This document shows, one piece after another, positions 18,535 to 26,595 of a DNA stretch of 64,000 nt. Within the stretch, counting starts at the first letter, position 1. Each line of letters starts with the position of its first letter. Below the pieces are notes generated by a model that searched no databases, was not told the DNA's origin, and was given only the letters and a program-made list of their open reading frames with translations. A program made the translations under genes and the position numbers. This DNA is from Lacinutrix neustonica. GTDB lineage: Bacteria; Bacteroidota; Bacteroidia; Flavobacteriales; Flavobacteriaceae. The stretch is taken from positions 2,149,501 through 2,213,500 of the forward strand of contig NZ_CP113088.1 in the NCBI RefSeq assembly GCF_026625145.1. The letters are read 5' to 3'.

Positions 18535-19279
18535 TTATAAGAATGCCTTAGAAATTTGATTTTGAAACACAAAAAAGGCACGCTTAGAAGCCTTTTCTTC
18601 GGCTTTCTTTTTTGAAGTCGCCCGACCTTTAGACACGATTTTATCATCTATAGATAGTTTTACCGAAAAGTGGCGAATGTCATCATTTCCAGTATCTTCG
18701 TATACATTATAATCAAAGGTTTTCTTTTCCTTTTGGCACCATTCTATAAGCAAACTCTTATAGCTAATCACCTTGCCTTCTAATTGTTCTATATCTACAA
18801 ACGGTGTAATTACGCGCTTATAAATAAATTTTTCGCAAGCTTTATAACCGCCATCCGAGATAAATAGCACCTACTAAGGACTCAAATAAGTTGCCATGAA
18901 TGTTGTCTCCAAATTGTCCTTTTGGAATTTTACTCTCTACTAAATCAATTAGTTTTAAATCGCGACCCAACTCATTAAGATGTTCTCTACTCACAATTTT
19001 AGAACGCATTTTAGTTAAATACCCTTCATCACCGCTAGGCACTTCTTCATAAAGATGATGAGCAATAACAGCGCTAAGCATGGCATCTCCCAAAAACTCT
19101 AAACGCTCATAATTTACAATATGGCCTTTCGTGTTTTTAATGTTCATAGAGCGATGCGTAAAGGCCGTATTAAAATGCTTGACATTTTTTGGCTTATAAC
19201 CTATAATCTCTGAAATAGTGGTAAAAAAAATCCCGTTATCTTTATTACGGGATCTAAATATGTTTCGAATGCGTTTCAT
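18535..19279 (-). CDS. rnc: Ribonuclease III
   Basis: Double-strand RNA endonuclease processing rRNA and structured RNAs, about 247 aa restored. The catalytic signature NYERLEFLGDAMLSAVIAHHLY (Glu and Asp metal ligands) and a second acidic site in FESLVGAIYLD are present, followed by the C-terminal dsRNA-binding domain (SKGRATSKKKAEEKASKRAF). The frame breaks at 18857: ATCCAGATAA has become ATCCGAGATAA, and removing the G gives GAIYLDGGYKAC. Downstream of fabF and acpP on the same strand, the usual order. Confidence 0.95.
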
Positions 19280-22592: not shown

Positions 22593-23529
22593 ATGAGTAA
22601 ACTAGTAGTAGTAGGTACAGTAGCCTTTGATGCTATTGAAACCCCTTTTGGAAAAACAGATAAAATATTAGGAGGCGCAGCTACATATATTGGGTTGTCG
22701 GCCTCTAACTTTAATGTTGATACCGCAGCTGTTTCGGTTGTTGGTGGCGATTTTCCACAAGAATACCTTGACCTTTTAACCGATAGAGGTGTTAATATAG
22801 AGGGTGTTGAAATTGTAAAAGAAGGCAAAACATTTTTTTGGAGTGGTAAATACCATAACGATATGAATTCTCGTGACACCTTGGCTACTGAGCTTAATGT
22901 CTTAGAACATTTTACTCCTGTAGTTCCTGAAAGTTATAGAGATGCCGAGATTGTGATGCTCGGGAATTTACATCCGCTGACGCAACAAAGTGTCTTAGAT
23001 CAGATGTCAAAAAAACCAAAGTTGGCTATTTTAGACACCATGAACTTCACGGATGGATATCGCATTAGACGATTTACGCTCTGTAATAAAAAATGTAGAT
23101 GTCATTACTATTAATGATGAAGAAGCAAGACAACTCACAGGAGAATATTCTTTGGTAGTTGCCGCTCGTAAGATTCATGAGATGGGCCCTAAGTATGTGG
23201 TGATTAAAAAAGGAGAGCACGGTGCTTTACTTTTTCATAATGAGAATGTATTCTATGCTCCGGCCTTACCTTTAGAAGAAGTGTTTGATCCAACGGGAGC
23301 AGGCGACACGTTTGCTGGTGGTTTTGCTGGTTATTTAGCTAAAACAAGAGACACCTCCTTCGAGAACATGAAAAATGCGGTGATTTATGGGTCAACCTTA
23401 GCCTCCTTTTGCGTTGAGAAATTTGGCACAGAACGCATGTTAACTCTAAAAGACAAAGAAGTATATAAGCGTTTACAGCAATTTAAAGATTTAACACAAT
23501 TTGAAATTGTTCTAACAGATGTTCAATAA
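22593..23529 (+). CDS. PfkB-family carbohydrate/nucleoside kinase
   Basis: About 311 aa restored, ribokinase fold. It shows the N-terminal GGAATYIGLSA and the C-terminal PfkB signature DPTGAGDTFAGGFAGY, with the catalytic Asp in GAGD. Family members phosphorylate sugars or nucleosides; the exact substrate is not readable. The frame breaks at 23047-23052, where TTCTGGATGG is printed as TTCACGGATGG. Restoring it gives the family sequence DTMNFWMDIALDDL. A terminator follows directly. Confidence 0.9.
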
Positions 23530-23645: not shown

Positions 23646-25543
23646 ATGAGTGATGCTTTAAAACACGAGTGCGGAATTGCACACATTAGACTTTTAAAAC
23701 CTTTAGAATACTACAAAGAAAAATATGGAAGTGCGTTTTACGGCGTAAACAAAATGTACTTATTAATGGAGAAGCAGCACAATCGTGGTCAGGATGGTGC
23801 TGGTTTTGCAAGTATAAAATTAGACACGAAACCTGGTGAACGTTATATTAGTCGTGTACGCTCTGTAGCTCAACAACCTATTCAAGATATCTTTGCTCAA
23901 ATTAACGAACGTATTAATAAGGAATTAACAGAGCACCCGGAGTACAATGATGATGTGGCGTTACAAAAACAAAACATTCCATATATAGGGGAAGTGCTTT
24001 TGGGGCATGTACGTTACGGTACCTTTGGTAAAAACAGCGTGGAAAGTGTACATCCGTTTTTAAGACAAAATAACTGGCAACACAGAAATCTTATTTTAGC
24101 TGGTAACTTTAATATGACCAATGTTAAAGAACTCTTTAGCAATCTGGTAGAACTGGGACAGCACCCCAAGGAATATACAGACACCATTACCATAATGGAG
24201 AAAATTGGCCATTTCTTGGATGATGCGGTAAGCAAAATTTATAAAGATTTAAAAAAAGAAGGATATAATAAAAATGAGTGTTCGCCTTTAATCGCAAAAC
24301 GTCTAAAAGTAGGGAAAATCCTTAGAAAAGCCGCGAAAAATTGGGACGGCGGGTATGCTATGGCCGGCTTATTAGGGCATGGCGATTCGTTTGTTTTAAG
24401 AGACCCGGCAGGTATACGCCCGGTGTATTATTATAAGGATGACGAAGTTGTTGTCGTTGCTTCAGAACGTCCTGTAATACAAACGGTCTTTAATGTTGCG
24501 TTTGAGGATGTAAAAGAATTAGAACCAGGTCACGCGATTATCACTAAAAAATCGGAGAAGTTTCTATTAAAAAAATATTAGAACCCTTAGAACGAAAAGC
24601 CTGCTCTTTCGAACGTATTTATTTTTCTCGTGGTAGTGATGCCGAAATCTATCAAGAGCGTAAAATGTTAGGTCGCTTATTAATGCCTGAAGTATTAAAA
24701 GCTATTAATCATGACACGGCAAATTCAGTCTTTTCATACATACCAAATACAGCAGAAACCTCTTTTTACGGCATGATAGAAACCGTAGAAGAATATCTCA
24801 ACGAACGAAAAACTCAAGCCATTTTAGAAGGCAACGGGAAGCTCTCCAAGGAACGTGTTATTAATATTCTCAAAGAGAGACCACGTATTGAAAAGATAGC
24901 TATTAAAGACGTTAAGCTTAGAACGTTTATAACGGAAGACAGCAGCAGAGACGACTTAGTGGCCCATGTGTACGATGTGACCTATGGTGTTATTAAACCC
25001 ACAGATAATTTGGTTATCATAGACGATAGTATTGTTCGGGGTACCACTTTAAAGAAGAGTATTATTAAAATGATGGATAGGTTACATCCCAAAAAAATAG
25101 TCGTTGTATCCTCTGCACCACAAATACGTTATCCTGATTGTTATGGTATAGACATGGCTAATTTGGAAACCTTAGTGGCTTTCAATGCCGCTTTATCCTT
25201 ATTAAAGGAAAATAATAAATACCATATCGTTGATGACGTTTATAAAAAATGTAAAGCACAGCAGAAGCTAAAAGATCACGAGGTAAAAAACTTTGTAAAA
25301 GAAATTTACGATCCGTTTACACCCGAGGAAATTTCAGCTAAAATATCAGAACTATTGAGTGATGATTCTGTTCGTGCCAAAGTTGAAATCATTTTTCAAC
25401 CAGTTGAGAACCTCCATCAAGCCTGTCCTAAAAATTTAGGGGACTGGTATTTTACAGGAAACTACCCTACGGCTGGAGGAAATAGAGTCGTTAATAGAGC
25501 CTTTATCAATTTTTACGAAGGCAATAAGGAACGCGCATATTAA
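23646..25543 (+). CDS. Amidophosphoribosyltransferase-like protein (class II glutamine amidotransferase)
   Basis: 632 aa restored. The N-terminal amidotransferase domain starts with the nucleophile region KHECGIAHIRL and has GHVRYGTFGKN and NRGQDGAGFAS. The C-terminal phosphoribosyltransferase domain carries the PRPP loop VIIDDSIVRGTTL. It resembles PurF (PRPP plus glutamine to phosphoribosylamine), but its inserts and length place it with the longer flavobacterial PurF-like proteins, so it may be a paralogue. The frame breaks at 24553/24554 (TCTGG to TCGG); the repair reads KKSGEVSIKKILEPLERKAC. Confidence 0.88.
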
Positions 25544-25626
25544 CAGTTGTTAATCACTTTAACAGATATCAATGCTTTTAATCTAAAAGATTTTTCTGTA
25601 ACTGTTTTTTAATATATATTTAAGTC

Positions 25627-25700
25627 ACCATAACATAAGTAGGTTAAGTTCATGGTAGATTTGGGGCAAAAAAAGCTGGACTCTCGTCCGGCTTTTTTTA
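25627..25700 (+). ncRNA. Candidate small RNA, copy 1 of a tandem pair
   Basis: A roughly 73-nt unit nearly identical to copy 2 at 25842. It can fold as an imperfect hairpin: ACCAT/ATGGT, AAC/GTT with a bulged C, an A-A mismatch, then TAA/TTA around a GTAGG loop. A single-stranded AGATTTGGGGC plus A-run follows, then a terminator hairpin GCTGGAC-TCTC-GTCCGGC and T7. A -7-like TATATTTA lies 5 nt upstream (25615-25622). No open frame. No family recognised; it could be an unlisted flavobacterial sRNA. Confidence 0.65.
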
Positions 25701-25828
25701 TGCTTAATAAAACCAATGACATTTAATCTAACTACGTATAAAAATATTCAACAGCGTCGATAAAATGCATTTTATCAGATATTTTTACCATTTATCTAAA
25801 AAAAACAATAAATCAATTTATATGTCGT

Positions 25829-25836
25829 TATATTTG
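25829..25836 (+). promoter_or_regulatory. -7 promoter element of the second small RNA copy
   Basis: TATATTTG, an exact TAnnTTTG match, ends 5 nt before the first conserved base of the repeat at 25842, just where transcription would be expected to start. Confidence 0.6.
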
Positions 25837-25841
25837 AACTT

Positions 25842-25912
25842 ACCATAACATAAGTAGGTTAAGTTCATGGTAGATTTGGGGCAAAAAAGCTGGACTCTCG
25901 TCCGGCTTTTTT
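25842..25912 (+). ncRNA. Candidate small RNA, copy 2 of a tandem pair
   Basis: About 71 nt, differing from copy 1 only in the length of the internal A-run (6 versus 7) and the terminal T-run. Conservation begins at the predicted transcription start and stops at the terminator T's, while the DNA between copies (25701-25841) is unrelated. That pattern fits a discrete duplicated transcript better than a dispersed DNA repeat. It lies between the PurF-like gene and, convergently, sodA. Confidence 0.68.
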
Positions 25913-25986: not shown

Positions 25987-26595
25987 CTATTTTGCCAAAG
26001 CAAAACGTCTTTCTACTTCATTCCAGTTAATCACATTAAAAAACGCATCAATGTAATCTGGTCTTCTATTTTGATAATTTAAATAATAAGCATGCTCCCA
26101 TACATCTAATCCTAAAATTGGAGTTCCACCACAACTAACGCCAGGCATTAAGGGGTTGTCTTGATTAGGTGTAGAACACACCTCTACTTTACCTCCTTTA
26201 TGCACGCACAACCAAGCCCAACCGAACCAAATTGAGTAGCAGCAGCTTTAGAAAAAGCATCTTTAAAGGCATCTACAGATTTAAAGGCTACTTCAATGGC
26301 CTCCTTTAATTCACCGAGATAACTGCCCTTTATCTTCAGGATTCATTACCTCCCAAAATAGAGAATGGTTGTAAAATCCGCCACCATTATTTCGAACGGC
26401 TTTATTCTCCATATCAACATTTGCCAAGATATTTTCAATGGTTTTTCCCTCTAAGTCGGTGCCTGCAATAGCATCATTTAATTTGGTGGTATACCCATTG
26501 TGATGTTTAGAATGATGTATTTCCATGGTACGCGCATCTATATTTGGTTCTAAAGCGTCGTATGCATATTTTAATTTCGGTAATTCGAAAGCCAT
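25987..26595 (-). CDS. sodA: Fe/Mn superoxide dismutase
   Basis: Cytosolic superoxide detoxification, 202 aa. Metal ligands are visible: His in [12 protein letters not shown], His in [11 protein letters not shown], and Asp and His in [12 protein letters not shown]. Motifs do not settle Fe versus Mn, though the triple Gly before NHSLFW is common in Mn/cambialistic forms. Two lesions cancel in length: an insertion at 26316 (GQLSGELKEA restored) and a deletion at 26223/26224 (TQFGSGWAWLCV restored), both at CCAGA. As printed, the middle of the enzyme is out of frame. Confidence 0.95.

Follow-up and report, generated by a model that had tools for sequence, protein, structure and literature searches.

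Analysing a 64,000-nucleotide stretch of the Lacinutrix neustonica genome (hereafter the window), we identified two tandem units that are probably the genes of one trans-acting antisense small RNA (sRNA), likely repressing an unlinked small-protein gene through pairing with its mRNA. These units belong to an sRNA family unlisted in Rfam, and the small gene to a newly uncovered micro-protein family, for which searches in Pfam, NCBIfam, PHROGs and PADLOC returned no convincing match. Each unit would be transcribed into an RNA of ~ 71 nt from its own sigma-A-type promoter, where a LytTR-type activator at two direct-repeat boxes, 20 bp apart, would replace the -33 box, and the near-invariant first 45 nt would pair with the mRNA of an unlinked gene encoding a protein of 26–44 residues. 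As far as literature searches show, few flavobacterial small RNAs have been characterised so far; if true, this reading would add an sRNA shared across the family, whose location and promoter logic are defined and for which candidate targets exist.

Anatomy and promoters of the two units

The features of the locus are as follows (window coordinates).

24665..25543, + strand: 3' part of a purF-like gene, upstream, a conserved synteny partner split in the assembly (NCBIfam purF match)
25554..25583, + strand: operator-like direct repeats of copy 1, TCACTTTAAC (25554-25563) and GCTTTTAATC (25574-25583), period 20, by eye
25615..25622, + strand: -7 box of copy 1, TATATTTA (sequence; family consensus TAnnTTTG)
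25627..25699, + strand: sRNA copy 1 (sequence, BLASTN, folding), with 5' hairpin 25627-25656, single-strand segment ~25657-25674, terminator stem 25675-25681/25686-25692 and T-run
25767..25796, + strand: operator-like direct repeats of copy 2, GCATTTTATC (25767-25776) and ACCATTTATC (25787-25796), period 20, by eye
25829..25836, + strand: -7 box of copy 2, TATATTTG (sequence; family consensus TAnnTTTG)
25842..25912, + strand: sRNA copy 2 (sequence, BLASTN, folding), with 5' hairpin 25842-25871, single-strand segment ~25872-25888, terminator stem 25889-25895/25900-25906 and T-run
25987..26595, - strand: Fe/Mn superoxide dismutase (SOD) gene, downstream and convergent, split in two frames (Pfam Sod_Fe_N and Sod_Fe_C)

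The near-identical tandem pair of ~ 71 nt proposed by the sequence-only reading was borne out: the copies share 99% identity (BLASTN with copy 2 as query, E 1.7e-27) and are the only two in the 3.9-Mb assembly, where the same search found no dispersed copies devoid of promoter and terminator. Both units fold better than 200 of 200 shuffles (z -4.1 and -4.8) into two stem-loops, carry GGGG inside a purine-rich single-stranded segment, and end at the T-run following a GCTGGAC/GTCCGGC stem, so that the architecture first read from the letters (5' hairpin, GGGG single-strand segment, terminator) holds on inspection and folding. By itself, the 5' hairpin region reaches a modest z of -1.5, equalled by 14 of 200 shuffles.

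Each unit was also said to possess its own -7 element and terminator, which was confirmed: the -7 boxes of both fit TAnnTTT(G/A) and stand 4 and 5 nt ahead of the conserved start, a distance (4 or 5 nt) kept in 231 of the 241 distinct upstream regions of the family from which the consensus was drawn. A conserved -33 TTTG was not seen among these 241 regions, which contain two degenerate GCNTTTNATC boxes with a 20-bp period, the nearer one starting 41 bp ahead of the -7 box. The spacer of ~ 141 bp between the copies, described earlier as unrelated, is not wholly so: it includes the operator-like boxes of copy 2, which resemble those of copy 1. Two direct repeats of ~ 9 bp, 11–13 bp apart and upstream of a core promoter, are the arrangement of LytTR-type promoters, and this is what the units display; the rule on site length and spacing, as given in PMC6193735, includes Treponema repeats with an 11-bp spacer. 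From repeat length and spacing, we infer a LytTR-type activator as the candidate regulator. LytTR-domain matches number 12 in the genome, with some pieces of one gene counted separately, and the closest is at 57 kb from the sRNAs.

Within the same genome, the operator pattern gave 25 matches versus 8 for the reversed control, and 11 of the 24 matches examined overlap an open reading frame (ORF) of more than 90 aa. We claim no genome-wide target list, since CCCAAATCTACCAT, searched with up to two mismatches, was not enriched in this genome (39 matches vs 48 in the control). An operator-like direct repeat was also observed ahead of a short gene starting MTNNDIFKKLRVAHKL (locus L382, own genome, G000), a putative regulon member that we take to resemble YehS/DUF1456.

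Conservation and synteny in Flavobacteriaceae

In a BLASTN search of 99 relatives, 47 of the 60 that belong to the same family carried the unit (E<=1e-13) and two more gave weak matches; in the 39 genomes from other families of the order, there were only three weak matches. A class-wide search of 395 genomes with RNA model R1 (7 pairs, terminator left out), run under stricter filters, returned 10 matches, all in Flavobacteriaceae, the family representing 14 of the 30 genomes listed and the other 365, which had no match, being taken by list order as outside it. Genera among the matches listed in a pattern scan include Flavobacterium, Winogradskyella, Formosa, Aquimarina, Salegentibacter, Salinimicrobium, Aequorivita and Tamlana, with others. 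Between 2 and 6 copies occur in 37 of 49 loci from related genomes (family range 1–6 per locus), and several copies would raise the sRNA dosage.

The copies usually sit at the same place in Flavobacteriaceae, between a purF-like and a SOD gene: when genes of at least 100 aa are counted, 115 of 133 loci have a purF-like gene as closest upstream neighbour and 90 of 133 a SOD-type gene as closest downstream neighbour, these loci combining named and unnamed sets with some genomes in both. Since each copy is equipped with a promoter and a terminator of its own, we rejected a role of the units as purF 3'-UTR. No viral contig contained the sRNA core as an exact pattern, and phage and plasmid collections gave no match to it at E 0.1; the SOD protein, searched against viral contigs, had relatives at 80 loci.

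In the window, the purF-like piece at 24665..25543 has an NCBIfam purF match far under the cut-off and no Pfam match. Split genes, in overlapping or adjacent frames, were observed at 18535-19279, 22593-23529, 23646-25543 and 25987-26595, a pattern suggestive of an assembly rich in frameshifts; completeness is given as 84% for this genome. The first two of these genes, named from their translations, are presumably RNase III-like and pfkB-like.

The first ~ 45 nt are almost invariant in 61 aligned units (from 73 units differing by more than 10%), and a strict core string is kept in 213 of 251. A fully paired terminator stem of at least 6 bp followed by a T-run was found in 247 of 248 units examined, a count made with no shuffled control, and the 5' arm of the stem takes 59 distinct strings, some nested in one another. 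For the 5' hairpin, where covariation had been proposed as a check, pairing is kept (98.4% of cells, attained by 28 of 500 shuffles) and covariation is weak because the sequence barely varies; its structure is not proven by covariation, since the one pair with changes on both sides is matched by 221 of 500 shuffles. It is the sequence, more than the structure, that has been conserved, which suggests that the RNA base-pairs with partners that are conserved as well. The initial proposal of a duplicated trans-acting sRNA is supported by the joint conservation of promoter, 5' segment and terminator, and by conserved complementary sites in unlinked mRNAs.

The final ~ 20 nt of a dispersed repeat of ~ 95 bp (GCGCCCTATGCTGTTTTTA...ACAGCATAGGATCC) are part of the sRNA core, TAAGTTATGGTAGATTTGGGG; the repeat occurs in several copies in Salegentibacter flavus (G103, G019; L473-L478), as well as in G019 and G043 (L126, L127). 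It may represent either a mobile element which has taken up the sRNA or a sponge.

Complementarity to an unlinked small-protein gene

Starting from weak matches to the unit, on the same strand, in other genera, we arrived at one intergenic region, flanked by genes for a 3-oxoacid CoA-transferase subunit B and an oligopeptide-type ABC ATPase, where an unannotated gene of 26–44 codons with the typical end ...LTKKVFML lies on the strand opposite to the sRNA-like match. In the Lacinutrix genome, it is found outside the window (G000 C1:2438118-2438240), 263 kb from the sRNAs (C1:2175127-2175415). Several genomes of the window's genus (L307, L315, L316, L318) have a further open frame, with an MRIKTL or MRIRTL start, in the interval from the CoA-transferase gene to the small gene.

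This antisense placement bears on the alternative that the RNA titrates a protein in the manner of CsrB, with GGGG and GTAGG as protein sites and mRNA complementarity as a secondary feature. Such a role would suit a multi-copy RNA with a strongly conserved purine-rich single-stranded segment, but mimicry would place the related motifs in sense, whereas they lie antisense to the small gene, as pairing predicts, and we consider protein titration most improbable.

The small gene is coding and under purifying selection: its last 22 codons show a pooled pN/pS of 0.23, with pN<pS in 43 of 45 pairs (the pairs being non-independent). It was detected in 38 of 99 relatives at E<=1e-3, as a single match each, with a disrupted copy in G017. 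Among 60 family genomes, 37 have both sRNA and small gene, 10 the sRNA only, 1 the gene only and 12 neither (Fisher p 5e-6, not corrected for phylogeny), and the single gene-only genome carries a diverged sRNA. The small gene was not detected in any of the 15 Flavobacterium genomes searched. The five peptides examined have a helical moment of 0.26-0.64 with a mean hydrophobicity near zero in that segment, and look amphipathic, not clearly membrane-spanning.

The small gene and the sRNAs would be co-regulated via the same promoter repeats: an operator model derived from the sRNAs exceeded the 99th percentile of shuffles at 28 of 31 small-gene promoters vs 1 of 79 other ORF starts, the repeats standing, by eye, about one helical turn nearer to the -7-like box than at the sRNAs.

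Computed complementarity between the sRNA and the leader, start or first codons of the small gene reached a median z of -6.2 in 31 of the 38 small-gene genomes, the other seven comprising five loci that were not fetched and two (G007, G027) where no ORF was selected. None of 200 shuffles equalled the real pairing in 28 of these 31 genomes, while the result was less distinct for G013, G023 and G030, where 4, 2 and 1 of the 200 shuffles did as well. Pairing energies of -34 kcal/mol or lower were obtained for 28 of 31 targets and for none of the 281 other ORF starts taken from these genomes. Small-gene mRNAs paired no better with their own sRNA than with Flavobacterium sRNAs (15/31). Among 18 named genomes, a set overlapping the 31 (at least Xanthomarina is the same as G050), 16 beat 100 of 100 shuffles, 12 of which have a duplex spanning the start; in two Aquimarina genomes, complementarity was slight or absent (z -2.7 and -0.3).

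The position of the best duplex varies among the 31 genomes: it covers the start codon in 16, and in the other 15 it lies within the first codons (6) or the leader (9). From these positions, a block of ribosome loading is expected, leader sites perhaps helping capture. Eight of the nine leader duplexes, at about -133 to -51, belong to the window's genus, where 8 of 10 genomes have their best duplex far ahead of the start codon; in the Lacinutrix genome itself, the best site is at -93..-56, and the start-codon site is weaker (-25.4 kcal/mol). Outside this genus, the start codon is spanned in 15 of 21 genomes. The prevalence of upstream sites in the window's genus would also agree with the opposite direction of control, where pairing would turn the small gene on, e.g. 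through the opening of a leader structure that inhibits it. A duplex over the start codon, as in the 16 of 31 genomes and in 12 of the 16 clear named ones, would however occlude initiation, which makes activation very unlikely.

The same upstream sites, together with the more than one complementary stretch present in several small-gene leaders, would also suit a leader acting as a sponge that titrates the sRNA, whose main targets would be other mRNAs, for envelope or surface proteins. Persistence of the sRNA where the small gene went undetected (the 10 family genomes and the 15 Flavobacterium mentioned above) is in line with this alternative, as is the second candidate target presented below. 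By contrast, purifying selection on the coding sequence indicates that the locus is not only a sponge, and the start-codon duplexes prevailing outside the window's genus also argue against it; we judge this explanation unlikely and retain repression of the small gene by mRNA pairing as the probable role of the sRNA.

A second candidate target and comparison with known RNAs

In some Flavobacterium genomes, the start of a CAP-domain lipoprotein gene coincides with sRNA-like matches in antisense, and its mRNA may carry a pairing site in this genus. With the genes located by protein similarity, CAP leaders were strongly complementary to the sRNA in 9 of 12 Flavobacterium (z <= -5.5, 0/100 shuffles), F. 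aciduliphilum (no CAP match) and F. silvisoli (partial matches only) being left out; the other three gave z of 0.2, -0.4 and -2.5, the start of the ORF with z -0.4 being probably mis-called. All nine strong leaders favour their own sRNA variant over that of the window (p 0.004), and taken with the small-gene results this suggests one conserved sRNA switching targets between genera. Two further strong Flavobacterium-type genomes (L464; L465 and L466) were chosen for their sRNA-like match, and are not independent evidence.

Outside Flavobacterium, support from CAP leaders was moderate to absent (z -1.1 to -5.5 over 9 genomes), after two loci with no ORF, two repeat ORFs and one wrong ORF were dropped from the same survey. 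A survey of the orthologues of relatives covered 30 loci from 42 matches, 10 of the 30 being dropped (seven with no ORF passing the filter, two without sRNA in hand, one wrong ORF), and gave z <= -3 in 11 of 17 usable leaders, three CAP paralogues being negative (z -1.4, -0.7 and +0.1). The CAP leader of the window's own genome is weak (z -1.4). CAP promoters fit the 20-bp operator model in 4 of 21 cases (three of the 21 being paralogues), and an operator-pattern match in the window's genome falls before the CAP-gene orthologue, but reads away from it.

Among known systems, type I toxin-antitoxin pairs, such as Sib/Ibs, ZorO-OrzO and others, resemble this arrangement in that an sRNA is complementary to the mRNA of a protein of fewer than 60 residues, which is what the computed complementarity and the coding signature of the small gene predict here. 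In type I pairs, the sRNA and the small gene are adjacent or overlapping, whereas here they are 263 kb apart. Type I peptides are also typically hydrophobic, membrane-spanning and toxic once unrepressed. Tentatively, and with more doubt than confidence, we propose that Flavobacteriaceae share a vertically inherited circuit resembling a type I toxin-antitoxin system with unlinked genes, in which one regulator would drive both a membrane-active micropeptide and, elsewhere on the chromosome, a bank of 1–6 near-identical antisense RNAs gating this peptide; Flavobacterium would have lost the peptide and re-used the RNAs on the CAP-domain surface lipoprotein.

Several near-identical sRNAs under one response regulator are also known from the csRNAs under CiaR and the Qrr sRNAs, which differ from the units by belonging to other phyla and having other targets, the regulator here being a predicted one. 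Closer in phylogeny is FopS (RF04319), described in PMC11697453 as multi-copy Bacteroidota sRNAs of ~ 65–70 nt that have promoters of their own and base-pair with envelope-gene mRNAs at the translation-initiation region. According to the same paper, FopS copies are intergenic, antisense and 3'-UTR-derived, use a canonical sigma promoter and pair with susC-type mRNAs through a 5' seed, whereas the units described here lie mostly in one tandem cluster, have direct-repeat boxes and yield a predicted sRNA able to pair along most of its non-terminator length. RbpB binding is a further FopS feature, and the FopS Rfam model scored the units at 17.7 bits for a gathering score of 56, i.e. no match. Most likely, judging from the sequence features compared, the sRNA works like FopS-type or type I antitoxin RNAs, being a member of neither.

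Another flavobacterial sRNA, Rfp18 of Flavobacterium psychrophilum, pairs through a third stem-loop with metalloprotease targets according to PMC9723704, and is set apart by this description from the unit with its two stem-loops. Literature searches, which did not extend to the supplementary tables of PMC9723704, found no description of this RNA or of the small protein, and an Rfp transcript of that study may be the F. psychrophilum copy of the sRNA.

Flavo-1 (RF01705), a small RNA element of Flavobacteriaceae that had been suggested as the first comparison, did not match: a scan of the window at gathering scores assigned the units to no Rfam family, and at a permissive E of 10 the units had 36 weak matches, none near a gathering score and none to Flavo-1, which was not found elsewhere in the window either. 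In 20 related loci, Rfam detected only tRNA and Flavo-1 elements, the latter away from the units. The same library does find Flavo-1 near sRNA clusters in two Flavobacterium genomes (L261:5781-5861 and L200:3536-3614).
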